Below are positions 3,843-16,443 of a stretch of 64,000 bases of DNA, piece after piece. This DNA is from a bacterium (GTDB taxonomy: Bacteria > Planctomycetota > UBA1135 > UBA2386): positions 1-64,000 of the forward strand of contig JAUILN010000001.1 in assembly GCA_030432695.1 (NCBI GenBank), given 5' to 3'. Within the stretch, counting starts at the first letter, position 1, and every line of letters begins with the position of its first letter. The notes beneath the pieces are model-generated. The model worked only from the letters and a program-made list of their open reading frames with translations. It had not been told where the DNA came from and did not search any database. The position numbers and the translations under genes were made by a program.

Positions 3843-6830
3843 TTATGCCTGGCTGCCAGCTGGCACGGCGTCCGCGCTTGGTGACGCCATCTCCGGATCC
3901 TCTTCCTCAGGACGCTCTCGCTGCCACAGCCACAACATCACGGGGGAGGCGATGAAGATCGTCGAGTAGGTGCCGCTCAGGAGGCCTATCACCAGAGCGA
4001 AAGAGAAGCCCTCGAGCGAAGACGACGCGCCAAGGTTCACTACGAACTGGGTCAGCACGACCATCATCGTGGTTGCCGTCGTCAGCAGCGTGCGCGAGAG
4101 CGTCTGGTTGATCGACAGGTTCAGCAATCGCTTGTGATTGAGCGGCTCGCCCAGGCGCTTGCTCTCGTCGAGGTTCTCTCGCACGCGGTCGAAGATGACG
4201 ATCGTGTCGTTGATGGAGTAGCCGATGATCGTCAGGAAGGCTGCGATCATCGCCAGGTTGATCTCGCAGTCCACGAGATGGAGGTAGTTCGCGACGACGA
4301 CCACGCCGAGGGTGACGAGCACGTCGTGGAGGAGCGCGACAACCGCGGCGACGCCGTACTTGTACTCGTGGAATCGTGCTCTGATGAAGAGGACGATCGC
4401 TCCCATGGCGATGAGGAGCGCCGTGATGGCTGAGTTCCGGAGTTCGTTGACCATGCGGCCACCGATCTCGGAGGACTCGGGGATGGGATCGGAGAGCTGC
4501 ACCAGTTCGCCCGAGGCGTTCTTCAGCTCGGCCGTCCGAAGCATCTGCTGGATCGCGCCGAATAGCTGAGAGTCCGAGACCTCCTTCGCGACGTCCCACT
4601 CGACCCGATATCCCGAACTTAGCCCAGCGTTCCCGTTGAGGGGCGTGAGGACGAGGCCAGCAAGCCCGCGGAGAGCGGTCTTCACCTCGTCGGCCGGAAC
4701 TTGATCCGCGAAGTGCAACTCGATGCTAGCGAAGTTGACCGCGCGGTCCGGATCAGGATCGACGATCGCATTTTCCTGCGGGGCGTCGACGAGTTTCGAA
4801 GCGAGGGCTCGACGCAACTCGGTCTTGTAGGGTGGCTCGTAGCCGTCTGGGTTTGCCTGCCGCTCTGCATCGATCTGGTTGCGCTGCTCCTCGTTCAGCT
4901 TGACGCGGATCGAGAACCGCCTCGCCTTTCCGTCGACGAGTTCTCCGACGCTGTTCACGATCGGGTTCTCGTACTGCCCGTGGAAGGCGTCGTCGTTGGC
5001 GAGCAGGTTCCGGATCTCCTGAGCGCTCGCGGGCTCACGAAGCGCGACATTCAGGTTGGCGCCACCCGTGAAGTCGATGGCGTACTTCTCGTCGTTCGGA
5101 ACCGAGAAGAAGGCCGCCAGACCCGCGAAGATCACCAGAGCACTCGCGGCAAATGCCAGTCGTCTCCGAGAGAGGAAGTCGATGTTCACATTCTCGAGCC
5201 AGTGGGCGACCTTGAAGTTCTTCAGGCGCCCAGACTCGAGGAGGTAGTGGAACACCAGCCGGCTCACGAAGAATGCCGTGAACAGCGTCGTGACGATGCC
5301 GATCATCAGCGTCACCGCGAAGCCGCGGATGGGTCCGACGCCTGCCTGGAACAGCACGACGCCGGCGATGAACGTCGTGATGTTGGCGTCGAGGATCGTG
5401 ACGATGGCGCGCTCGAAGCCGGTGCGACAGGCCTGGAGGAGGTCCTTGCCGCGCTGCAGTTCCTCGCGGATGCGTTCGTAGATCAGGATGTTGGCGTCGA
5501 CGGCCATGCCCATGGTGAGCACGAGGCCGGCGAGGCCCGGCAGGGTCAGGCGCGAACGGAAGAACGCGACGACGCCGAGCAGCAGGAGGATGTTGAGGCC
5601 CAGGCCCGCGAACGCGACGAGACCGGCGATCCGGTAGTACGCGAGGATGAAGCCGAGCACCAGCACGGCGCCGATCGCGATCGAGTACATCGCGAGTTCG
5701 ATCGACCGCTGGCCCAGCTGGGCGCCGATGACGTCCTTGGACTGGAGGACCGGGCGCACCTGAAGGGCTCCGGTGCGCAGCACCTTCACCAGTTCGTCGA
5801 CCTCGCGGCGGCTGAAGTCACCCGAGATCTGGCCGGTGCCCACGATCTTCCCGCGGAAGACCGGAGCGGAGTAGACCTCCCCGTTGAGGATGATCGCGCT
5901 CTGCTTGGTGACGTTCCGGCCCGAGAACTCACCGTACCGGGGCGCCTGGTCGGCGCGCATCTGGTACGTGATCGCCGGACGGCCGAGATCATCGAGACTC
6001 GGTCCGATCCGGCCGACGTTGAGGTCGTCGCCCTCGAACGACTCCTCGTGCATGTTGATCGGCACGAACTCGACCAGGAACCGCTCGCCCTCGGGCTTCT
6101 CGAGGATCGCATCCGGAATCTGCCCGGCGTTGTAGTCCTCGGTCTCGAAACCGCTGACGGCGTTCGAGTAACCCGACAGGCTCCACGCTTCCCGCCACTT
6201 GCGGGAGTTGTCCGCGGAGGGCCGGATGACGTGCGGATACCAACGCAGGTCATCGCCACCGGCGACCGGGCCCTGATCCTCACCCGTGAGGGAGTTGAAG
6301 ACCCGGATTGCCGCGGGATCCTCCCGGACGAGCTGCAGATTGGCCGGTTCCTTCAGCCATGCTTCGAGTCGTTCCTTCTCGGCGGCGATATCGAAGCGGG
6401 TCTCCTCGCCTGTGGCCTCGTCGAGATCGACGTAGGTCTGCTCGGCCACGAGCCGGAACTCGAGCTGGCCCAGACTCTCGATTCGCGACTGGATCGCCTG
6501 TGCTTCGGCCTCGTTCTGGACGTCCGGGACCTCTACGAGGAAGCCGTATTGACCGCGCCGGAGAACCGCCGCATCGAGGATTCCCGTCGGATCCACGCGA
6601 CCGTCGACGATCGATACCGTCTCGTCGACGATTGCGTCTATTTCGGTCTCTGAAGCGTCGGCGGAGATGTCACCCGCCGCCTGGGCTCCGGGGATGTCGA
6701 TCTCGTAGATGAGCTGAATGCCCCCCTTGAGGTCGAGGCCGTAGCGAATGCCGAGGAAGCCCAACGAGGCGATCGCGGCGGCGGCCAGGACGAACACCAG
6801 GAAGACCTGGCGGCGTGCGTTCTCGAGCAT
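3843..6830 (-). CDS. secDF: SecD-SecF fusion protein translocase subunit
   Basis: 995 aa, with SecD and SecF fused in one chain. SecDF uses the proton gradient to help pull exported proteins through SecYEG. The SecD half has an N-terminal membrane segment, 'YGLDLKGGIQL', a large periplasmic region and about five C-terminal membrane segments. The SecF half begins near residue 555 and carries 'IDFTGGANLNV', another periplasmic region and the 'GYSINDTIVIFDRVREN' segment typical of SecF. The C-terminus is acidic and polar. No yajC precedes it; a 254 bp spacer separates it from rplS. The fused form occurs in several phyla, including Planctomycetota and Bacteroidota. Confidence 0.95.
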   Translation of the reverse strand: MLENARRQVFLVFVLAAAAIASLGFLGIRYGLDLKGGIQLIYEIDIPGAQAAGDISADASETEIDAIVDETVSIVDGRVDPTGILDAAVLRRGQYGFLVEVPDVQNEAEAQAIQSRIESLGQLEFRLVAEQTYVDLDEATGEETRFDIAAEKERLEAWLKEPANLQLVREDPAAIRVFNSLTGEDQGPVAGGDDLRWYPHVIRPSADNSRKWREAWSLSGYSNAVSGFETEDYNAGQIPDAILEKPEGERFLVEFVPINMHEESFEGDDLNVGRIGPSLDDLGRPAITYQMRADQAPRYGEFSGRNVTKQSAIILNGEVYSAPVFRGKIVGTGQISGDFSRREVDELVKVLRTGALQVRPVLQSKDVIGAQLGQRSIELAMYSIAIGAVLVLGFILAYYRIAGLVAFAGLGLNILLLLGVVAFFRSRLTLPGLAGLVLTMGMAVDANILIYERIREELQRGKDLLQACRTGFERAIVTILDANITTFIAGVVLFQAGVGPIRGFAVTLMIGIVTTLFTAFFVSRLVFHYLLESGRLKNFKVAHWLENVNIDFLSRRRLAFAASALVIFAGLAAFFSVPNDEKYAIDFTGGANLNVALREPASAQEIRNLLANDDAFHGQYENPIVNSVGELVDGKARRFSIRVKLNEEQRNQIDAERQANPDGYEPPYKTELRRALASKLVDAPQENAIVDPDPDRAVNFASIELHFADQVPADEVKTALRGLAGLVLTPLNGNAGLSSGYRVEWDVAKEVSDSQLFGAIQQMLRTAELKNASGELVQLSDPIPESSEIGGRMVNELRNSAITALLIAMGAIVLFIRARFHEYKYGVAAVVALLHDVLVTLGVVVVANYLHLVDCEINLAMIAAFLTIIGYSINDTIVIFDRVRENLDESKRLGEPLNHKRLLNLSINQTLSRTLLTTATTMMVVLTQFVVNLGASSSLEGFSFALVIGLLSGTYSTIFIASPVMLWLWQRERPEEEDPEMASPSADAVPAGSQA

Positions 6831-7036
6831 GCTCTAGCGCTGCTTTGGTTCGGTTGCTCGGACGCGGGCGCGAGGCGTCCGCGGGCGCCGTTCGGCGCCG
6901 TCCCGATGCGTCGGAGAGGAGAGCGGGGGGCGCCGATCGGAGATCGGTCGACCCGCCGGCACCTGCCGGCGTGACTCGCTTGGCGGCGAACCCCGGCGGC
7001 GGCTGATCCGCCTGCTGGGGCTCCGCTGGTCAAGGC

Positions 7037-7054
7037 CCGGACCTGGAGGTCCGG
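7037..7054 (-). terminator. Hairpin downstream of rplS (possible terminator)
   Basis: A perfect palindrome (CCGGACC, 4-base loop, GGTCCGG) lies 30 bases after the rplS stop on the minus strand. No U-tract follows, so it may be an mRNA 3'-end stabiliser rather than a true intrinsic terminator. Confidence 0.35.
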
Positions 7055-7084
7055 AAGTTGGTCGTATCGAGCAAGGCGGATGCC

Positions 7085-7498
7085 TCACTTGGTGCTAGCC
7101 GCCTCCGGAGCGGCCTTGTTCGCACCCTTCGGCATGGCGCGTGGGCCGCGAAGCTTGCCGAAGTTCTGGCGCAGGCGGACCGCCTTGCCGACCCGCTCGC
7201 GCAGGTAGAACAGCCGGGCTCGACGGATACGCCCCTTGGACTTCACCTCGACCTTCTGAACGCGCGGCGAGTGCAGCGGGAAGCGTCGCTCGACGCCCTC
7301 TCCGGCTACCAGGCGCCGTACGAGGAAGGTCCGTCGGATGCCGGACCCAGAGATCGAGATCACGGTCCCGGTGAAGACCTGAACGCGCTCCTTGTCGCCT
7401 TCGCGAATCAGGTAGTGAACGTCCACCGTGTCGCCGACGCCGAAGTCGGCGATGTCGGTGCGCATGTTCTCGAGTTCGATCTGTCGGATCAGGTCCAT
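7085..7498 (-). CDS. rplS: 50S ribosomal protein L19
   Basis: 137 aa. L19 sits at the 30S-50S interface. The body is canonical: 'FGVGDTVDVHYLIREG', 'VQVFTGTVISISG', 'GVERRFPLHSPRVQKVEV' and 'RRARLFYLRER'. The C-terminus has a short Ala/Lys-rich tail. As in most bacteria it lies downstream of trmD on the same strand, but the usual tight spacing is replaced by a 336 bp gap, and rimM and rpsP are not adjacent. Confidence 0.97.
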   Translation of the reverse strand: MDLIRQIELENMRTDIADFGVGDTVDVHYLIREGDKERVQVFTGTVISISGSGIRRTFLVRRLVAGEGVERRFPLHSPRVQKVEVKSKGRIRRARLFYLRERVGKAVRLRQNFGKLRGPRAMPKGANKAAPEAASTK

Positions 7499-7834
7499 CG
7501 TCGGGCTCCGTCGGCCTCGTTTCGTGGACGAGGCCTGTGCGATATCTCGCGTTACGCTCAGGTTGGTTCTGGGTCCGTCCTCGGCCGATCCCCGGGAGGG
7601 GGTCGCGTGGGATCGGAGGAAGCGGTCGGGTCGGTCGGATCGGTTGAAGCGTCAGAAGTCCCGAAGTAGAGAGGCAGGGAGGGGGGCGAGGAGCAAGGCG
7701 GTTCGGGTCGGCGACGGCGCAGGCCGACCGAAGCCGCTACGCTCCAGTCCGAACTCGCGGAATCCCGGATCCGGCGTGTTCGTAGTCGGCGGTGTCCTCT
7801 GGGGTCTCGCAAGCGTTGTCTGGGACAAGCGCCC
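7499..7834. other. Spacer between trmD and rplS, no gene seen
   Basis: 336 bp. Open frames through it on both strands are Arg/Ser/Pro-rich with no recognisable family. A GGTCG-type short repeat cluster lies near 7620-7650. A small inverted repeat (CCTCGT...ACGAGG) sits near 7517-7535, just upstream of rplS. Confidence 0.6.
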
Positions 7835-8692
7835 TCAAGAGTCCGTGTCCTGCCGACTTGCCGTGTCCTCCGAATTCGAGCGCGGCTGCATGCCGCTCTC
7901 ATCCTCCGTGTGGGATCCACCACTCCGCGACGACATCCGTTTCGCCGATCCAAGCGCCGCCGTTCGATCGGCCGCCGCCGTGATGCCAGCGGCCGTGATG
8001 CCAGCGGCCGTGATGCCAGTCGCCGTGAGGTCGGGTGTCCCGGCGATTCCGAACGACTCGGCGATCTGGCGCCTCCAGCGAGCCACGGCTCCGTGGTCAC
8101 CGGAAAGCAAGACCTCCGGAACTTCCATCCCTCGGAAACAGCGCGGACGCGTGTAGTGCGGGTGGTCGAAGCGCTCCTCCTCGAAGGACTCCGCCACCGC
8201 GGACTCTTCGCATCCGAGGACTCCGGGAATCAGCCGGACGGCCGCTTCCAGCACGGTCATGGCCGGAAGCTCGCCTCCGGCCAGAACGAAGTCGCCGATC
8301 GAGATCTCATCCCAGGTCATGCCGTCGCGGATCCGCTCGTCGAATCCCTCGTACCGTCCACAGAGCAGCATGAGGCGCTCGACGCGGGAAAGCTCCCGAG
8401 CCTTCGCCTGGTCGAATCGCCGGCCCCGTGGGCACAGCATCACCTTGTGGAAGGACCCGAACCGGCGCTCGGTGTCTTCTACAGCTTCAAAGATCGGCTC
8501 GGGCTTGAGCACCATACCCGGGCCACCACCGAACGGCCGGTCATCGACGGTCCGGTGGCGATCGTGGGTGAAATCCCGGTAGTCGACATACTCGAGGTCG
8601 AGCTTGCCGAGCCTCTGTGCGATCCCCAGGATGCTCTCGTCCAGGTAGGGCCGGATGGCGCCCGGAAAGAGCGTGAGGACTGCACAGAGCAT
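7835..8692 (-). CDS. trmD: tRNA (guanine-N1-)-methyltransferase
   Basis: 285 aa SPOUT methyltransferase that makes m1G37 in tRNAs and so prevents +1 frameshifting. The core shows 'LTLFPGAI', 'GGGPGMVLKPEPIF', 'LCGRYEGFDERI', 'EISIGDFVLAGGELPAM' and 'PHYTRPRCFRGMEVPEVLLSG'. After about residue 225 the protein continues with a low-complexity tail containing three in-frame copies of a 5-residue unit (ITAAG-like) and then a Ser/Arg/Asp-rich stretch. Family members usually end near 230-250 residues. Transcription is divergent from ribE, with 71 bp between the two starts. Confidence 0.95.
   Translation of the reverse strand: MLCAVLTLFPGAIRPYLDESILGIAQRLGKLDLEYVDYRDFTHDRHRTVDDRPFGGGPGMVLKPEPIFEAVEDTERRFGSFHKVMLCPRGRRFDQAKARELSRVERLMLLCGRYEGFDERIRDGMTWDEISIGDFVLAGGELPAMTVLEAAVRLIPGVLGCEESAVAESFEEERFDHPHYTRPRCFRGMEVPEVLLSGDHGAVARWRRQIAESFGIAGTPDLTATGITAAGITAAGITAAADRTAALGSAKRMSSRSGGSHTEDESGMQPRSNSEDTASRQDTDS
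7980..8024. repeat. 15-bp tandem repeat x3 inside trmD
   Basis: Three direct copies of a 15 bp unit (GTGATGCCAGCGGCC; third copy with two changes), in frame in the trmD tail, where they encode repeated Ile-Thr-Ala-Ala-Gly. The unit length keeps the frame open. Confidence 0.9.
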
Positions 8693-8763
8693 GGTGCCTC
8701 GCCGAAGAAGGGCCGAGTAGACTAGGGAGCCGCATCTGCGCAGTCAAGCGAGGTCACGAGCGA

Positions 8764-9381
8764 GTGTTCACGGGTCTCATCACCGCCATGGGGCGGGTCA
8801 TCGCCGCGCTCCCTGTCCGGGACCAACTCGACCTGCAGGTCGAGCTCGGAGGACTCGCGGCGAGTGCACGCATCGGTGACTCCATCGCCCTGTCCGGCGT
8901 GTGCTGCACCGTGGTCGAGATCACCGGCGAGGTCGGGCTGTTTCGCCTCTCGCGCGAGACCCTCGAGCGGACATGGCTCGGTCGGGCGGTTCCGGGTACC
9001 CGAGTCAACCTCGAAGGCGCGCTGCGAGTGGGCGAAGCCCTCGGTGGGCACCTCGTGCAGGGCCACGTCGACGGCGTGGGGAAGGTCGTCAGCAGCATCG
9101 ATCCCAAGGAGGGGGGTGACCTGGGATTGTCCGTTCCTGATACCCTTCGGCGATATTGTGTCGAGAAGGGGTCAATTACGGTGGATGGTGTGTCTCTCAC
9201 CATCGCGGGGATCGACGGAGCGACGATCCGGATCGCGGTCATTCCGCACACCGCGCAGGTCACGACGCTAGGCGGCCTGCCTGCCGGAACTCCACTGAAC
9301 CTGGAGGTCGACGTGATCGCGAAGTACGTGGAGACGATGTTGTCTGCCCGGTTCCCCGACCGAGCGGTCGCCGACGATTGA
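8764..9381 (+). CDS. ribE: Riboflavin synthase alpha chain
   Basis: 205 aa. It dismutates two 6,7-dimethyl-8-ribityllumazines to riboflavin plus pyrimidine. The start is GTG, giving the invariant N-terminus 'MFTGLI'. Two homologous lumazine-binding domains are visible: about 1-95, with 'SIALSGVCCTVV', and about 98-195, with 'GHLVQGHVDG', 'SITVDGVSLT' and 'VIPHT'. Length is normal. No other rib gene is nearby, and no FMN riboswitch is apparent in the 71 bp upstream. Confidence 0.95.
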   Translation: MFTGLITAMGRVIAALPVRDQLDLQVELGGLAASARIGDSIALSGVCCTVVEITGEVGLFRLSRETLERTWLGRAVPGTRVNLEGALRVGEALGGHLVQGHVDGVGKVVSSIDPKEGGDLGLSVPDTLRRYCVEKGSITVDGVSLTIAGIDGATIRIAVIPHTAQVTTLGGLPAGTPLNLEVDVIAKYVETMLSARFPDRAVADD

Positions 9382-9450
9382 TCAAGCATCTCGGTCTCGC
9401 CGAGCGTCCGCGGGGGGTCGGGGAAGTAGACCGCGAGGTCGTGAGCGTCG

Positions 9451-9466
9451 GCTCACGAAAGTGAGC
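9451..9466. terminator. GAAA-tetraloop hairpin between convergent ribE and MCE gene
   Basis: A perfect 6-bp stem (GCTCAC/GTGAGC) closes a GAAA tetraloop between two convergent genes. No T-run follows on either strand. It could act as a 3'-end signal in both directions; evidence is weak. Confidence 0.35.
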
Positions 9467-9498
9467 TGCGCCGCACGCTTTCGCCGCAGGGTATTCGA

Positions 9499-10671
9499 TC
9501 AGAATGCGCCGGTCGCGACCTGGAAGAACGTACCGATCGGGGCGGCCTCCCGGGCGTCCTCGATCGCGCGGGCGACCTGATTGAGCATGCGCGAGAACTG
9601 CTCTCCGAGCTCGTCATCGAACACGAGGCGACCGAGTAGGCCCCGGCCGTCTCGGATCTCGGCGGCGACTGCTCCGAAGTCGTCGGCAATGGCTACGAAC
9701 CGGTCCCGCAGGTTCCGGTCTGCGACCAGCGCTCCGATCACTCCTGCCATCGGGTCGTTCAGCCGGATCGAGAACGCCGCGAGTTCGCCGGTGAGAGTCT
9801 GGAGGTCCTCGGCCACCTGCTCATTCGACATGAGCAGGCCGAGAGGACCCCGGCCCGAGTTCAGCGCCGCGGAGAACTCTTCGACGTTCGCGAGCGTGTT
9901 GGCCAACGAGTCGCCGAGATCCTCGTCGTTGATCAGGCGTCCCAGCGGACCGTTCCCCGTGTCGATCTTGCGCACCGCCGATGCGGCGCCCGACACCAGT
10001 TCGACCAGCTCCTCGCCCATGGCCTCGTCGTGGATCAGTCGCCCCACGGCCCCTCTTCCTGCTTCGATGGCCTCGGAGTTCCGCCGTAGGCTCTCCAGGA
10101 GTTCCACCGCGACCCGGTGGAAGGTCTCGTCGTTGAGCAGCCGAGCGAGCGTGCCCTGGCCCTCATTGATGCGCCGAAACATCTCGCGGGCGTTGGAGAG
10201 GATGCCTTTCAGATCTGCTTCGATCTGCGGGTCGCCGACCAGGTCGCCGATCGCATCGAACGGGTCCTTTCGTCGCGTGCCCAGCAGCGTGACCGCCGGC
10301 GCCATCTCGTTCGGGCCGTCGCCGGGGTCGATCTCGATCTGCTGGCCGCCGAGGAGCGAGCCGGCTTCGATCCGCACCTCGTACGCGTCGGTGATGCGGA
10401 CCTCGCGGTCGAGGCGGACCCGTACCACGACCTTGCGTTGCCGATCCGTCGCGGTGGGGTCGGGAGCTATCGACTCGACCTGGCCAGTTCGGACCCCCAG
10501 GACGAACACATTGTCTCCCGCTCGGAGACCGGCCGCGTTGTCGAACCACACCGTTCGATACTCGGTCTGCTCGAACGACACTCCGGTGAGGAACAGAGTC
10601 GTGACGAGCAGCAGCGCGAGCCCGGCGAAGAACACCAGGCCGAGCATCAAATCCTGACGGGGTCGTTCCAT
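9499..10671 (-). CDS. mlaD: MCE-domain lipid transport protein (MlaD-like)
   Basis: 390 aa. MCE proteins bind lipid and form the periplasmic ring of Mla-type transporters. One N-terminal membrane anchor (about 9-30) is followed by the MCE domain (about 38-115, with 'VWFDNAAGLRAGDNV', 'GVRTGQVESI' and 'SLLGGQQIEI'). The C-terminal part (about 170-365) holds six copies of a 'GxGxLGRLLxDE' motif starting near residues 171, 205, 239, 273, 308 and 342, an almost exact 34-residue period, predicted helical. This is the last gene of the four-gene MCE operon, 27 bp after the ATPase gene. It probably links an inner-membrane MlaEF-like complex to the outer membrane. The symbol is by analogy with E. coli. 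Confidence 0.88.
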   Translation of the reverse strand: MERPRQDLMLGLVFFAGLALLLVTTLFLTGVSFEQTEYRTVWFDNAAGLRAGDNVFVLGVRTGQVESIAPDPTATDRQRKVVVRVRLDREVRITDAYEVRIEAGSLLGGQQIEIDPGDGPNEMAPAVTLLGTRRKDPFDAIGDLVGDPQIEADLKGILSNAREMFRRINEGQGTLARLLNDETFHRVAVELLESLRRNSEAIEAGRGAVGRLIHDEAMGEELVELVSGAASAVRKIDTGNGPLGRLINDEDLGDSLANTLANVEEFSAALNSGRGPLGLLMSNEQVAEDLQTLTGELAAFSIRLNDPMAGVIGALVADRNLRDRFVAIADDFGAVAAEIRDGRGLLGRLVFDDELGEQFSRMLNQVARAIEDAREAAPIGTFFQVATGAF

Positions 10672-10698
10672 GACGTCTCTGGGACTCTGATGTTCGGA

Positions 10699-11427
10699 TC
10701 AGTCGGCTCCGCCGCTGAGGAACGCGCGGACGATCTCGTGGTCGGATTCCTGCATCTCCTCGATGGTCCCTTCGGCGAGGATCCGGCCCTCGTCGAGCAC
10801 ACCGATTCGGTCGCCGGTGTCGAAGGCGCAGGCCCGGCTGTGGGTGACCACGAGGCCGGTGACTCCGAGGCGATCACGCACCTCGGCGATGAGTCGATGG
10901 ATCTGCTCGGACATGATCGGATCGAGGCCTGCATTGGGCTCGTCGTAGAGCACGTAGCGGGGTTCCGTGACCAGCGCGCGGGCCAGTCCCGTCCGCAGCT
11001 TCATGCCTCCCGAGATGCTCGAAGGGTACTGAGCTGCGGCGTGGTCCATCCCGACCAGGCCCAGAACCTCCATGACGCGAGACTCGACCTCGTCTCGCGG
11101 GAGGCTGCGACGCTCGCGGAGGGGTAGTGCCACGTTCTCGAAGACGGTCAACCAGTTGATGAGGGCGCCGTTCTGGAACAGGTAGCCCATGCGCCTGCGG
11201 AGTGCGGCGAGCTGACGCTGTGTCAGGTCCGGAACCGACTGGTCGTCGACGATGACCGTACCCGCATCAGGACGCAGGATGCCGATCACGTGCTTGAGGG
11301 TGACGCTCTTACCCGTACCCGATCGCCCCATCAGGACGTAGTTCAGACCCTCGGGCACCAGGAGGTCGAGTCCGGCCAGGATCTGCCGGTCTCCCAGTCG
11401 CTTGTGCACGCCGCGCAGTTCGATCAT
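10699..11427 (-). CDS. mlaF: MCE-associated ABC transporter ATPase (MlaF-like)
   Basis: 242 aa nucleotide-binding subunit. Motifs in order: Walker A 'GRSGTGKS' (about 34-41), Q-loop 'FQNGAL', signature 'ISGGMKLR', Walker B 'YVLYDEP', followed by 'NAGLDP', and the switch histidine 'VVTHS'. The 'NGAL..LTVFENV' and 'SGGM..R' wording is typical of the MlaF/Mkl subfamily rather than of drug or amino-acid importers. It lies 9 bp downstream of the permease gene and 27 bp upstream of the MCE gene, consistent with one transcript. Confidence 0.92.
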   Translation of the reverse strand: MIELRGVHKRLGDRQILAGLDLLVPEGLNYVLMGRSGTGKSVTLKHVIGILRPDAGTVIVDDQSVPDLTQRQLAALRRRMGYLFQNGALINWLTVFENVALPLRERRSLPRDEVESRVMEVLGLVGMDHAAAQYPSSISGGMKLRTGLARALVTEPRYVLYDEPNAGLDPIMSEQIHRLIAEVRDRLGVTGLVVTHSRACAFDTGDRIGVLDEGRILAEGTIEEMQESDHEIVRAFLSGGAD

Positions 11428-11436
11428 CCCGGTGCG

Positions 11437-12306
11437 TCAGCCGTCGAGCAGAAAGTAGAACAGCCAGGTGATCACGTAGCCGAGCACGATGATCAGGATG
11501 ATCGACCCCATCACCGCAGATTGCACGGCGCGACCGACTCCGAGCGCGCCGCCCTTGGCGCGGAGTCCGGCGGCGCAGCTCACCGTCGCGATGGTGCATC
11601 CGAAGACGATGGCCTTGATCAAGCCGACATAGACGTCCTTCGGTAGAAGGTGGGTGGAGTCGAGCAACGACTCCCGCACCGCAATCCAGTAGCTCTGTTG
11701 GGTGATTCCCAGATGGGCCGTCGCCACCGCAGCTCCACCGACGATGCCGATCAGATCGGCGAACACGGCAACCAGCGGGCACGCTAGCGTCAACGCGGCG
11801 ATCCGCGGCAGGACCAGGAAGTCGGTGACGTCGATCGACATCACGTCGAGGGCGGTGGTCTCCTCGGAGACCGTCATCGTGCCCAACTCGGCGGCGATGG
11901 CCGATCCGACCGTCGCGGCGAGGATCACCGCGGTCATGAACGGGCCCATCTCGCGGCACATCGATAGCGCAACGATGCTCCCGATGAGGTCCGATTGGCC
12001 GTAGCGCCGCAGTTCGATCCCGGTCTGCAGTGCCAGGATCATCCCCGCAAAGAACGCGACGACCGCGGAGACGGGGAGCGCCTTGACGCCGGCTGCGAAC
12101 GCTGCGTCCAGCGCGAAGCGGAGGCGTCGCGGCAGACGATGGACGAGGAGGAGGGCTCGGCCGAGTAGACCGACGCCGAATCCAGCCGACACCGCGGCGC
12201 TACGCAGTCCTGCTCCGGTCTCACGTATCGGTGCCAGCAGGCTGTCGCGCACGGCGCCGGATCGCGCCTCGGTCCCTGGCTTCGAGTGGTGGTGGTAGTA
12301 CTTCAC
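11437..12306 (-). CDS. mlaE: MCE-associated ABC permease (MlaE-like)
   Basis: 289 aa integral membrane permease. The chosen start is GTG at 12306, whose GTGA overlaps the stop of the upstream lipoprotein gene by 4 bases; a longer reading frame upstream is antisense-like and overlaps that gene. Family features include 'ALPVSAVVAFFAGMILALQ', 'REMGPFMTAVILAATVGSAIAAELGTM', 'EETTALDVMSIDV' and several hydrophobic spans through to 'LIIVLGYVITWLFYFLL'. The N-terminal ~45 residues (His-rich 'YYHHHSKPG') are variable. It should form the MlaEF core that moves phospholipid or a related lipid between the membranes. Confidence 0.9.
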   Translation of the reverse strand: MKYYHHHSKPGTEARSGAVRDSLLAPIRETGAGLRSAAVSAGFGVGLLGRALLLVHRLPRRLRFALDAAFAAGVKALPVSAVVAFFAGMILALQTGIELRRYGQSDLIGSIVALSMCREMGPFMTAVILAATVGSAIAAELGTMTVSEETTALDVMSIDVTDFLVLPRIAALTLACPLVAVFADLIGIVGGAAVATAHLGITQQSYWIAVRESLLDSTHLLPKDVYVGLIKAIVFGCTIATVSCAAGLRAKGGALGVGRAVQSAVMGSIILIIVLGYVITWLFYFLLDG

Positions 12307-13832
12307 CGGCTCGGGATCTCCGTCGGGGAAGCTGGAGCCTCGTTCGACCCGCCGAGGGGGATCGGCAGGAGATTGAACAGGTAGAGGGTGCTCGCCGCGT
12401 CGTCGCCCTCGTAGCTGAACAGGAACGGAACGCTGGTCTGGGTGCGGCCCGACCGTTCGCGGGTCGTGAAGAGATGCGCGGCGAGGTGGAACGATTCGTC
12501 GTCGACGGCCCGACGCCGGCCCTTCGCCAGGGTCCAGATCCAGCCGTACGCCTCTTCGACTCCGACCGCGTTGCTCTCCCGCCAGGGCCACGGCGACAGC
12601 ACGCTCCAATCGCCGCGGGTCGCGGTGCCATCCTCGTCGAGTGACTCCTGACGGTGGAACAGCGGCCAGATCTTGGTGAAGTCGTCGTGTGATCCGTCGC
12701 GGCCGTCCCGCGTCACCCGCCAGTACACCGGCAGGAACCAGTCCTGTTCCTGCGTGCCTTCCGGATCCCGGTACTCCCGGAACCAGATCAGCGGCCAGAG
12801 GAAACTCCAGGCCCACTGTCGATCCGTGACCGTCCGGGCGACGAGCGGCCACAGCCACCACCGCTCCAGGTTGAAGCCGGTCGAATCGTCGAGTTCGTAG
12901 CGGAACAGCGGCCAGAGCAGCGTGAGCTTCAGCAGCCGGTCGTCGATCCGGAGGTACTCGAAGAACGGCCACAGGAACGACCAGCCCGAGACGTGTGGTC
13001 CGTAACGGTGGCCGAGGATCGGCCACAGCATCCAGTGGTCGATCGGGCGGTCGGTGTTGCGGGCTTCCGTGCCGAAGTGGATGAAGGGCCACAGGATCGA
13101 CCAGCGCCAGTAGGCCTGGTCCTCGGCGAACATCCACAGCGGTAGTGCTCGATGCCAGCGGTAGCCGTCCGGTCCCGAGCCGAAGCCGACCAACGGCCAT
13201 AGGAACAGGTTGCCGACGTTGCCGTTCTTCTCGGTCCCCGTGTAGAGCGGCCAGAGGACGAACAGCAGGCGATCGTAGGTGAGGAAGTTCGGGAGGTCGG
13301 CGTAGAACGGGAAGATGCCGAAGTAGCTCTCCTCACCGTCCTCGCGGGATCCGCCCCAGATGAACGGGAACAGGGCGTACCAGTCGGTTTCCTGGAGACC
13401 GTCGACGTTGGGGCGGCTGCGATACCAGTAGAGAGGGAAGAACCGGTGGGAAGACTCCTGGCCGTCGCTGCGGACGCGACCGAGCGGCCAGAGGAACTGG
13501 TGCTCGGTGGCCGAGCGACCGACGATGTTGGTCTCCGGCTCGGTGACCCGCCGGTAGAAGGGGCGGATCCGGAAGTCGTCTCCGCCCTCTGGAGTCTGCT
13601 CGTAGTGGAAGATCGGCCAGAGGACGTCGACCTCCAGGGGGCTGCCATCCTCGGCGAGTCGCTGGCGATAGAGCGGTGAGAGGTTGAACTCGCTGGGTAG
13701 CCATGTGCAGCCGCCCAGGATGCTGGGGAACATCAGTCCGACCAGCAGCGTGAGACACGCGGTCAGTGCCGGATGCCGGGTCCGTTGCGCGGCCGCCGCC
13801 ACCAGCTGTCGGCTCACGACAACCCTCGCCAT
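12303..13832 (-). CDS. Predicted lipoprotein with repeated LWP motifs, in MCE operon
   Basis: 509 aa; I do not recognise the family. The start at 13832 gives a lipoprotein signal peptide: Arg-rich n-region, hydrophobic stretch and lipobox 'ILGGC' with Cys near residue 42. Starts at 13868 or 13982 are also open. The mature protein is unusually rich in Trp, Phe and Pro and contains about 16 copies of an 'LWP-hydrophobic-x-aromatic' unit (for example VLWPIFHY, FLWPLGRV, ALFPFIWG, VLWPLYTG, FLWPLVGF, ILWPFIHF, FLWPFFEY, LLWPLFRY, FLWPLIWF), each ~25-45 residues apart and often followed by polar or acidic residues. This looks like a repeat beta structure, possibly a barrel or propeller at the outer membrane. 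It is the first gene of the MCE operon and overlaps the permease start by 4 bases, so a role as an outer-membrane partner (the place of MlaA) is plausible but unproven. Confidence 0.75.
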   Translation of the reverse strand: MARVVVSRQLVAAAAQRTRHPALTACLTLLVGLMFPSILGGCTWLPSEFNLSPLYRQRLAEDGSPLEVDVLWPIFHYEQTPEGGDDFRIRPFYRRVTEPETNIVGRSATEHQFLWPLGRVRSDGQESSHRFFPLYWYRSRPNVDGLQETDWYALFPFIWGGSREDGEESYFGIFPFYADLPNFLTYDRLLFVLWPLYTGTEKNGNVGNLFLWPLVGFGSGPDGYRWHRALPLWMFAEDQAYWRWSILWPFIHFGTEARNTDRPIDHWMLWPILGHRYGPHVSGWSFLWPFFEYLRIDDRLLKLTLLWPLFRYELDDSTGFNLERWWLWPLVARTVTDRQWAWSFLWPLIWFREYRDPEGTQEQDWFLPVYWRVTRDGRDGSHDDFTKIWPLFHRQESLDEDGTATRGDWSVLSPWPWRESNAVGVEEAYGWIWTLAKGRRRAVDDESFHLAAHLFTTRERSGRTQTSVPFLFSYEGDDAASTLYLFNLLPIPLGGSNEAPASPTEIPSR

Positions 13833-13903
13833 CGCGGGCACGATACGCGGCCCGTATCGAAACGCCATCCCGGAGCCGCCTCCTGCCCGATAGAGTGCCG
13901 GGC

Positions 13904-14461
13904 ATGGGAGGCAAAGTTCAGTCGCGACCCCACGGTCGTCTTCGTCGCACTCGGCTTCGCGGTGGTCTCGGGTCGTCTGCACGGCTAGGTCGGGTCGCTC
14001 ATCCGATGGTCGGGATCTGCGTGCTGTGGTTGGGTGGCTGTTCGGGCGCGCCGACGACCATCGATCCAGCAGTCGTGGAAGCCGAAGAGGCGAGGCTGCG
14101 GGCGCCGTTCGGCGAATCGCGCACGATCGTGTGTGAGCGGCTCGACGTTTCGCTCTCGCCGAACTTCGTCGGTGTCATGACCTACCCGGTTCCGAATCTT
14201 GCCGTGCAGTCAGAGGAACGCCTCGAACTTCCCGATGGGGGCCTCCGGCGCACCTTCAAGAACGGCGGCGGGGACAGCCTCAGATTCGCGGTCGGGAATC
14301 TGGCGTTCAGGGTGTTGGAGGAGGCACGTATCGAGGTTCTCGGTGGGCGAGCCACGATGACGTTGTCGGCGGAGACATCCGGGGATACCTGGCTCGTGCA
14401 GGGCTCGCAGACCCAGCAGATCTCGCCGTTGCGGATCGCCGACGGGGCGGCCCGTCCGTGA
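13904..14461 (+). CDS. Putative small lipoprotein
   Basis: About 185 aa from ATG 13904, or 151 aa from ATG 14006; the start is uncertain. A hydrophobic 'MVGICVLWLGGC' segment ends in a good lipobox (LGGC). The mature part begins with a polar/acidic stretch 'APTTIDPAVVEAEEARLRAPFG' and continues with mixed beta-like sequence (for example 'GVMTYPVPNLAVQSEE', 'RTFKNGGGDSLRFAVG'). No known domain is recognised. It is divergent from the MCE operon (72 bp from that start) and overlaps the next lipoprotein gene by 4 bases (GTGA), so the two are coupled. Confidence 0.65.
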   Translation: MGGKVQSRPHGRLRRTRLRGGLGSSARLGRVAHPMVGICVLWLGGCSGAPTTIDPAVVEAEEARLRAPFGESRTIVCERLDVSLSPNFVGVMTYPVPNLAVQSEERLELPDGGLRRTFKNGGGDSLRFAVGNLAFRVLEEARIEVLGGRATMTLSAETSGDTWLVQGSQTQQISPLRIADGAARP

Positions 14462-15507
14462 GACTCCGGTTGGTCGGAATCCTCATCCTCAGTGGTTGCA
14501 CGGGCAGTTCGTTCCTGCCCGCGCCATCGCCGCAGGATGCCTCAGGATGCAACGACAGGGACTGGCCGGCCGCGGAATCCGCGGCGGCGCGGGGTGATGC
14601 GGCGGCTGCACTCCCGCTGTTGGAAGGCGTCGTCCGAAACTGTCCGGCCTTCGCTCCCGCCCACGAGCTGTACCAGGACCTTGCGATCCAGCGCGGCGGG
14701 GCGGCCGAGGCATCGATGCGGGCGTACTATGCGGCCGGACCCGGTGGACGGCCGTCGGGCCTCGACGCCTACCTGCAGGCTCGGCTCCAAAGCAACGAGT
14801 CGCGCCGCAAGGATCTGCTGGACCGGTCCCTCTCAGAGGATCCGGCACTCTGGCGTGCGCATCTGGAACGGGCGCGAATCTGGCTTCGCGCGGGCAATCT
14901 TGAGAACGCGTTCGCCGATCTCGAGGCAGCGGTTCGCGGCGACCCGAGTGCGCCCGCACCCAATCTGGAGCTTGCCCGGGTGCTGCGGTCACTGGGCCGC
15001 GCCTCCGACGCCGCGCGCCACTACGGGCGTTATCTGGCAGCCCGGCCAGAAGACCTCGCTGCAGTCACCGAGTATGTCCGCCTGCTGATCTACGAGTTGG
15101 GCGAGCCTGATCCTGCGAAGCCGTGGCTAGATCGGCTGCTCGAGGCGTCTCCGAGCGATCCCGAACTCCTGATGGACTCCGCTGCGCTGGCGTGGCGCAC
15201 CGCGGAGCGGGATCGGGCGGCGGATCTCTACCGCCAGGTGCTCGAACTCGATCCCCAGGCGGCGCGGGCCGCGCTCAATCTCGGTAACCTGTACTATCTG
15301 TCGCCTGATCGGGATGAGGCGGACAAGCGGCGGGAGTGGCCACGAGCCCGGTTGGCATACCTCTACTTCCTCGAGCTGGCGCAGGTCCATGATGGTCACG
15401 ACCTGCGTGACATGCTCACGACCGTGCCGGAGAGGCTCGCGAACATCGATGCGGTTCTGGGGCCGCTCCCACCTGGGACCCCGCCGCCAAGCGCTCGCGA
15501 TCTCTGA
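14458..15507 (+). CDS. TPR-repeat lipoprotein
   Basis: 349 aa. GTG start inside the previous stop (GTGA). The signal peptide 'MRLRLVGILILSGC' has a canonical lipobox LSGC. The rest consists of tetratricopeptide repeats: A/L/Y patterns such as 'ALWRAHLERARIWLRAGNLENAFADLEAAVRGDP' split over about 130-165, then further units near 165-200, 235-260 ('AADLYRQVLELDPQAARAAL') and a closing helix. TPR lipoproteins usually scaffold envelope complexes. Its pairing with a second lipoprotein and its divergent position beside the MCE operon suggest an envelope role. The partner is unknown. Confidence 0.8.
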   Translation: MRLRLVGILILSGCTGSSFLPAPSPQDASGCNDRDWPAAESAAARGDAAAALPLLEGVVRNCPAFAPAHELYQDLAIQRGGAAEASMRAYYAAGPGGRPSGLDAYLQARLQSNESRRKDLLDRSLSEDPALWRAHLERARIWLRAGNLENAFADLEAAVRGDPSAPAPNLELARVLRSLGRASDAARHYGRYLAARPEDLAAVTEYVRLLIYELGEPDPAKPWLDRLLEASPSDPELLMDSAALAWRTAERDRAADLYRQVLELDPQAARAALNLGNLYYLSPDRDEADKRREWPRARLAYLYFLELAQVHDGHDLRDMLTTVPERLANIDAVLGPLPPGTPPPSARDL

Positions 15508-15741: not shown

Positions 15742-16443
15742 TCACCAGAGATTCGGCAGTTCGTGTCTCGCCAGATCTCGCCCGAGACGATCGCGGTCTT
15801 CCATGACGAGCCGGTCGGCTCGGTGGCCTTGCCGGCGCAGGACTCGTCTCGGACTGTCGATCTTGGCGACCAGCCAGTTTCCGGGTGGAGTGTGTCTCGC
15901 GAGCAGGTTTCGCAGGTCGAGGTTCCGGTCACGGAAGCCTGCCCGGTGGAGGGAATCCACGAGGTCCCGAATCGCCGACAGCAGCCCGCTCCGGTCCGGG
16001 TCGGTCAGCGATCCGAGGAGGTTCTCCACGGAATCTCCCGGCCAGGTCCGAGTCACGAGAATCGAGCGACGGAGTTGGCCGGTCCCGGTGCGAGCCTCTG
16101 CCAGGCCGAGCGGCTCGGCCGTCTCGAAGCCGCGCATGATCATCCACTGCAAGGCCGTATATTCGCGCCAAGCCCTCGATCGGGCGAGCCAGGTAGTCCG
16201 GAACCAGCCTCGGCGACGATCCACAGGCGTTGGGTAGTCGTAAACCTTGACGTGGCAATCGATGCCCGCGACGATTCCACGGCTTGTCCACGACGATCGC
16301 GCGGCGCGGATCAAGGTACCGGTGGCTTGCGCAGCGAGTTCGTCAGGAACGGGTGCCGCCCCGCTAGATGCCGTGGTCCGAAAGATCTCTCCCCGGACTT
16401 TCCAGGGACCCAGATTCAGGAATTCGCCCGGGGTGGAGATCAC
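15742..16443 (-). CDS. WaaP/InaA-like (Kdo/LPS) kinase-fold protein
   Basis: 233 aa with GTG start. The kinase-like core shows 'VYDYPTP', 'SRAWREYTALQWM' (helix C region), 'ILVTRTWPGDSVENLL', the catalytic-loop segment 'LHRAGFRDRNLDLRNLLA' and 'VAKIDSPR' (the DFG-equivalent Asp). This fits the lipopolysaccharide kinase (InaA/WaaP/KdkA) family, which phosphorylates lipid A-core sugars. In the usual motif 'HRDLxLRN' the catalytic Asp precedes the loop Asn by five residues; here that position is Asn (RNLDLRN), so activity is doubtful. Convergent with the TPR lipoprotein gene; a small inverted repeat (CCTCG TGA CGAGG) lies just past its end near 15707. Confidence 0.7.
   Translation of the reverse strand: MISTPGEFLNLGPWKVRGEIFRTTASSGAAPVPDELAAQATGTLIRAARSSWTSRGIVAGIDCHVKVYDYPTPVDRRRGWFRTTWLARSRAWREYTALQWMIMRGFETAEPLGLAEARTGTGQLRRSILVTRTWPGDSVENLLGSLTDPDRSGLLSAIRDLVDSLHRAGFRDRNLDLRNLLARHTPPGNWLVAKIDSPRRVLRRQGHRADRLVMEDRDRLGRDLARHELPNLW

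Follow-up and report, generated by a model that had tools for sequence, protein, structure and literature searches.

In this work we have analysed a 64,000-nucleotide stretch of DNA from a planctomycete (GenBank assembly GCA_030432695.1, contig JAUILN010000001.1, positions 1 to 64,000 of the forward strand; called the window below), and in particular an operon at positions 9499–13832 that encodes an MlaEFD-type ATP-binding cassette (ABC) transporter together with a lipoprotein built from repeated Leu-Trp-Pro units, here called the LWP protein. This protein represents a large, real and previously unnamed family, and it is almost certainly a genuine partner of the MlaEFD system. We further propose that it is the dedicated outer-membrane-side component of a long-needle MlaEFD transporter, in which it would replace MlaA and MlaC; we put the probability of this reading at roughly 0.6. 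The transporter core is already known; what we did not encounter in the databases and open-access literature searched are the family of the partner and its distribution, the MlaD tip that goes with it, and the fold predicted for it. The features of the operon are the following.

12303–13832, minus strand: LWP-repeat lipoprotein of 509 residues, ATG start, gene 1 of the operon; open reading frame (ORF) present in nearly the whole class
13707–13832, minus strand: signal peptide and lipobox SILGG/C, read from the sequence, with the lipidated Cys at residue 42 and Thr at +2
12360–13680, minus strand: repeat region of 18 units of ca 19 residues (six-residue beta-strand, xWP[LF], six-residue beta-strand, polar D/G turn)
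11437–12306, minus strand: MlaE-family permease, GTG start (PF02405, 8.9e-66; TIGR00056, 9.6e-59, below the curated cut-off)
10699–11427, minus strand: MlaF-type ATPase (PF00005, 1.1e-27; best NCBIfam model MlaF, 5.4e-57, below the equivalog cut-off)
9499–10671, minus strand: MlaD/MCE protein of 390 residues with a long C-terminal extension (PF02470, 1.2e-14, residues 40–117)
9502–9549, minus strand: C-terminal hydrophobic tip of MlaD, EAAPIGTFFQVATGAF, with a pattern common to loci that have LWP

The four genes are tightly spaced in the order LWP protein, MlaE, MlaF and MlaD/MCE, with −4, 9 and 27 bp between them, and the GTG start of MlaE overlaps the LWP stop by 4 bp (GTGA). The matches to PF02405, PF00005 and PF02470 lie above cut-off in adjacent genes, which places the system among the MlaEFD/MCE ABC transporters. 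A preliminary description made from the letters of the window had reported the same packing and overlap and the same three relatives, and the ORFs and domain matches agree with it on all these points. In the Pfam scan, MlaD shows no second domain. The genome (10.0 Mb, 37 contigs) contains five MCE loci, with six MlaD-domain matches of which two fall within one gene, and the LWP gene is found only at the locus in the window. The four others (G000:C33, C14, C5:779050 and C30, i.e. L318–L321) are all without it; one of them encodes a 500-residue protein with two MCE domains.

The partnership can be judged from a sample of 154 loci that were chosen by the LWP protein alone. A same-strand mlaE, mlaF or mlaD adjoins the LWP gene in 145 of them. 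By group, a co-directional mla neighbour is present in 57/57 loci of the window's own class, 37/40 of the Planctomycetota, 10/10 of the phylum of a Leptospiraceae metagenome-assembled genome (MAG), 7/7 of the phylum of a Lentisphaerae/Kiritimatiellae MAG and 34/40 of the phylum of a Deltaproteobacteria MAG, with one of the failures in the latter at a contig end. These last three phyla will be called Spirochaetota-, Verrucomicrobiota- and Desulfobacterota-type, which are inferred labels. The gene order varies between the groups. Directly downstream of LWP lies mlaE in all 57 class loci examined, and the order LWP-E-F-D holds, with few exceptions, in Planctomycetota, Verrucomicrobiota-type and Spirochaetota-type genomes. 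The order is E-F-D-LWP in 30 of the 34 linked Desulfobacterota-type loci (L168, for example), and at L294 the LWP gene is placed between mlaF and mlaD.

We have also considered the reverse direction, by scanning GTDB with MlaE as the anchor, and of the 80 MlaE loci that came out nearest, 25 carry LWP. An exploratory tree of 191 MlaE sequences (FastTree) has a well-supported clade of 101 rows, all but seven of which are LWP-positive; the group with LWP downstream belongs to another lineage and is intermixed with LWP-less systems, and the divergent MlaE of L269 and L295 have LWP as well. By parsimony, the presence of LWP changes eight times on this tree. Since LWP accompanies different MlaE lineages in different gene orders, the association points to a functional link and not to one frozen neighbourhood. 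The gene neighbourhoods establish, at the level of sequence, that LWP is co-encoded with mlaEFD in at least four phyla. A survey of the adjacency to mlaE in other genomes had been suggested in the preliminary description, which also named a family found broadly without MCE neighbours as the unfavourable outcome; what the loci give instead is a linkage conserved across phyla and gene orders.

The family is widespread. In a first search LWP was found in 60 of the 61 genomes of the window's class, the window genome included, and in a fuller one in 148 of 154; the class consists of a single order among the genomes searched. The named GTDB records with the nearest operons are Planctomycetota, and a sample across this phylum has LWP in 159/392 genomes (118/267 genera). 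For the three further phyla the frequency is ca 30–50% of the genomes sampled, namely 102/345 for the Desulfobacterota-type, 59/198 for the Spirochaetota-type and 98/195 for the Verrucomicrobiota-type phylum, where the latter two tallies include some weak matches to long distant relatives.

The window protein has 18 units of the pattern [LIFVA][WFLR]P[LFIVW], 10 of them exact LWP, whereas 2000 random reorderings of the same residues contain 1.3 such units on average and never more than 6. The repeat nature noticed earlier is thus real, and the count of about sixteen units becomes 18 with the present pattern. No family match was obtained in Pfam, NCBIfam or PHROGs, and no PDB sequence match with either the single sequence or a profile; 24 members of the family that were scanned have no Pfam or NCBIfam family either. 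In particular, the MlaA domain (PF04333) is absent from the LWP protein and from the 24 members, the MlaC domain (PF05494) is absent from the LWP protein, and no Pfam, NCBIfam or PDB match connects it to the PqiC/LptE-like lipoproteins. A relation to SRP68 was discarded, as the E-values of 0.15–1.2 are not significant. The protein could not be assigned to a family from its letters, and the profile searches have not turned up a known unrelated family for it. We found no description of the family in the open-access papers searched, a set that does not include most subscription papers and preprints.

It is important to note that the proteins which LWP would replace are nearly missing from the class. 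MlaC was found in 0/61 genomes with a PF05494 search, for which E. coli and Caulobacter served as positive controls, and with the same controls MlaA was found in 1/61. This sole MlaA (G060:C36:61117-61647, minus strand; L175) is possibly a horizontal acquisition or a contamination. Among the 345 genomes of the Desulfobacterota-type phylum, 16 have both LWP and MlaA, 86 only LWP, 165 only MlaA and 78 neither, an inverse relation with an odds ratio of 0.088 (Fisher p ~1e-19, uncorrected for kinship). According to these genome counts, LWP occurs mostly where MlaA is absent, which is what one would see for a protein that works like MlaA. The earlier idea of an outer-membrane partner taking the place of MlaA is therefore supported as to the linkage, the near-absence of MlaA and MlaC and the anti-correlation, while the outer-membrane location and the handling of lipid are parts that we infer.

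The MlaD protein provides another connection. In the window it ends in a tip of the form PI.TF...GAF, and the general pattern is P[ILV]xx[FLV] plus a short hydrophobic terminus, in many cases ...GAF. The tip is present in 123/135 MlaD of LWP-positive loci, several of the exceptions being second MlaD copies, and in 1/23 LWP-less relatives from other groups with the Kiritimatiellae left out; as the pattern was written after the sequences had been viewed, this comparison is descriptive. MlaD endings of the FEDEDLKYLFG type, which we read as fused-barrel-like, occur at several loci, all of them without LWP. The conserved tip is at most suggestive of a PqiC-like binding of the MCE C-terminus by LWP.

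We now turn our attention to the structure. With 24 sequences, AlphaFold yields for the whole LWP protein a model that is all beta except for one short helix, with a predicted local distance difference test score (pLDDT) of 89.7 and a predicted template modelling score (pTM) of 0.77; for the ten-unit core the pLDDT is 95.3. The protein is predicted to be one long, open antiparallel ribbon of ca 40 six-residue strands, with one edge made of the repeated L-W-P-F/L-Y turns, where W-P-F/Y are hydrophobic, and the other edge polar. Within the unit, hydrophobic residues are found at positions −4 to +2 around the Pro, and charged residues or glycine dominate elsewhere. A mean-field covariation analysis of 162 sequences, pooled over the repeats, couples +3 with −4 over the polar turn (mean z 3.3, median 1.9) and −7 with +6 over the Pro turn (mean z 1.95; 0/3000 random-anchor draws as high). 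Pairing at both turns makes a two-edged antiparallel meander the most likely arrangement. Another option considered was that long kinked strands fold into a "taco"; this was dropped because the covariation favours a hairpin at the Pro turn as well as at the polar one. The Pro-Pro couplings were ignored, since prolines separated by two repeats couple just as strongly and the signal is thus probably an artefact that arises from near-invariant columns.

Foldseek searches of the whole model against the PDB and viral structures, and of a 191-residue core against the PDB, resulted in weak local matches only, with template modelling (TM) scores of at most 0.36 among the PDB matches listed. They include VDAC, LptD, OspA, TCP10/CPAP and axonemal central-pair proteins; OspA and the latter two share the local antiparallel meander geometry with LWP, but have no sequence relation to it and TM scores of at most 0.36. 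A propeller, a VDAC-like barrel and OspA membership were not accepted on the basis of such matches. The barrel or propeller with a lipid-sized cavity that had been envisaged in the preliminary description is not supported; the predicted fold is a long open meander. The all-beta prediction, the secretion signal and the weak 3Di matches to VDAC and LptD could nevertheless be taken to mean that LWP is an integral outer-membrane beta-barrel forming a pore for lipids. We consider this very improbable, because six-residue strands are rather short to cross a bilayer, the covariation indicates hairpins at both the Pro and the polar turns, the predicted structure has TM scores of at most 0.27 to the barrels listed, and the existence of giant relatives of 1284 and 2266 residues suits an open-ended repeat.

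Regarding secretion, the window protein has the signal peptide and lipobox Cys of a bacterial lipoprotein. The lipobox is conserved in 53/59 LWP proteins of the class, as counted with a filter so strict that some clear cases escape it, and in 34/38 from Planctomycetota outside it, and none of the 128 lipobox-bearing members has Asp at +2. In E. coli, lipoproteins without Asp at this position are compatible with outer-membrane sorting, a rule that may not hold for Planctomycetota. The absence of the Asp would accordingly be compatible with sorting of LWP to the outer membrane.

The lipid anchor is also of relevance for a different scenario, in which LWP carries or bridges lipid in the periplasm, with acyl chains held along its aromatic-proline edge, and stands in for the shuttle MlaC and not for the receptor MlaA. 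The lack of MlaC in all 61 class genomes, the long repetitive hydrophobic edge and the secreted, non-lipidated forms in other phyla are in line with this. However, the anchor on most Planctomycetota members speaks for a fixed receptor more than for a shuttle, and MlaD is already long, which has been argued to make a shuttle unnecessary (PMC10665443). We therefore regard a carrier as unlikely, although it is the strongest of the competing explanations.

A number of observations weigh against an outer-membrane-side component dedicated to MlaEFD. LWP of the Verrucomicrobiota- and Spirochaetota-type phyla and some of the Desulfobacterota-type carry ordinary signal peptides with no lipobox, which means that the anchor has been dispensable in evolution and that "outer-membrane lipoprotein" cannot define the family; the original label of lipoprotein fits the window protein and most Planctomycetota but not these. 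The AlphaFold model is a monomer. The 16 Desulfobacterota-type genomes show that LWP and MlaA can coexist, and the p-value, being uncorrected for kinship, makes the evidence look stronger than it is. A small number of LWP genes are located away from mla genes (L243–L246, L250, L273, L292 and L293); in three small genomes (L244, L245 and L250) the neighbour is a gene that by sequence appearance is coaD-like (phosphopantetheine adenylyltransferase). Gut Kiritimatiellae keep the MlaD tip with no LWP gene nearby, as judged at the locus only; their MlaEFD operons with the tip are L117, L120, L122, L125 and L133, some of which have a tetratricopeptide repeat (TPR)-like gene upstream of mlaE.

The giant relatives belong here as well. 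L339–L341 encode repeat proteins without MCE neighbours, which means that the repeat as such is not peculiar to lipid transport. At L339, from the Spirochaetota-type phylum, two giant secreted LWP/FFP-repeat proteins of 2266 and 1284 residues are encoded in tandem (4182–10982 and 11049–14903, plus strand), with no MCE genes near the pair, and the larger one has near-identical internal super-repeats. The ORFs L340:2527–5682 and L341:4324–6618, both on the minus strand, are long distant LWP-repeat ORFs of Verrucomicrobiota-type genomes. Such other extracellular or periplasmic uses of the repeat raise the option that LWP serves the structure or assembly of the MlaEFD needle, or the envelope architecture, and has no contact with the transported lipid, and PqiC itself has been proposed to be a collar and not a conduit (PMC10897342). 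The co-occurrence with one type of MlaD tip and the inverse occurrence with MlaA point instead to a role in the pathway, and we judge an assembly factor to be somewhat less likely still than a carrier.

Returning to LWP as the outer-membrane-side component, the transport would be driven by MlaE and MlaF, and the MlaD hexamer would span the periplasm. LWP would be located at the inner face of the outer membrane, where its aromatic-proline edge would provide the docking site for the six hydrophobic MlaD tips, and it would couple the MCE channel to that leaflet. The linkage is observed directly; from it and the features above we infer the outer-membrane-side placement, the docking of the tips and the contact with lipid. 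That LWP is a receptor or anchor on this side is about as probable as the proposal as a whole, and that it forms the lipid path itself is less so. More tentatively, and with the odds slightly against it, LWP might be a third outer-membrane end for MCE transport besides MlaA plus MlaC and the barrel-fused MlaD, i.e. a separate, open beta-repeat ribbon of new fold whose aromatic-proline edge both receives the MlaD tips and acts as lipid path, in Planctomycetota and the Verrucomicrobiota-, Spirochaetota- and Desulfobacterota-type phyla.

Comparison with known systems puts this in perspective. The E. coli Mla system (MlaA-MlaC-MlaFEDB) has the same inner-membrane core families MlaE, MlaF and MlaD, but differs from the window's class, which has hardly any MlaA, no MlaC, a long tip-ended MlaD and LWP. 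The MlaEFD of Veillonella parvula likewise has a core without MlaA or MlaC, but in that organism a barrel fused to MlaD forms the outer-membrane end (PMC10665443), whereas here this end would be the separate LWP protein together with a short MlaD tip. In PqiABC, a lipoprotein is encoded with an MCE needle; this outer-membrane lipoprotein, PqiC, is the proposed receiver of the PqiB C-terminus (PMC10897342), an arrangement that the docking of MlaD on LWP would resemble. The two lipoproteins are unrelated, however: PqiC is an octameric toroid of 187 residues, while LWP has 509 residues, a predicted repeat meander and no sequence match to PqiC.

Two further features of the window lie close to the operon. 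A divergent pair at 13766–15507 (plus strand) adjoins it, encoding a small lipoprotein-like protein, for which no Pfam match was found, and a TPR lipoprotein-like protein. At 15742–16443 (minus strand) there is a Kdo/WaaP-type lipopolysaccharide kinase (PF06293, 8.3e-6), which hints that this planctomycete may have lipopolysaccharide.

Finally, the MlaD of Planctomycetes-Verrucomicrobia-Chlamydiae (PVC) bacteria has no fused barrel, and helper proteins not yet identified were proposed for it (PMC10665443). The question of how an MlaEFD without MlaA, MlaC or a fused barrel reaches the outer membrane has thus been raised for these bacteria, and LWP is a concrete candidate for the missing helper or outer end. 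If the proposed role is true, different phyla would have put unrelated proteins in place of the outer end of inter-membrane lipid transport, and a name could be given to many of the "hypothetical proteins" that sequenced genomes contain.

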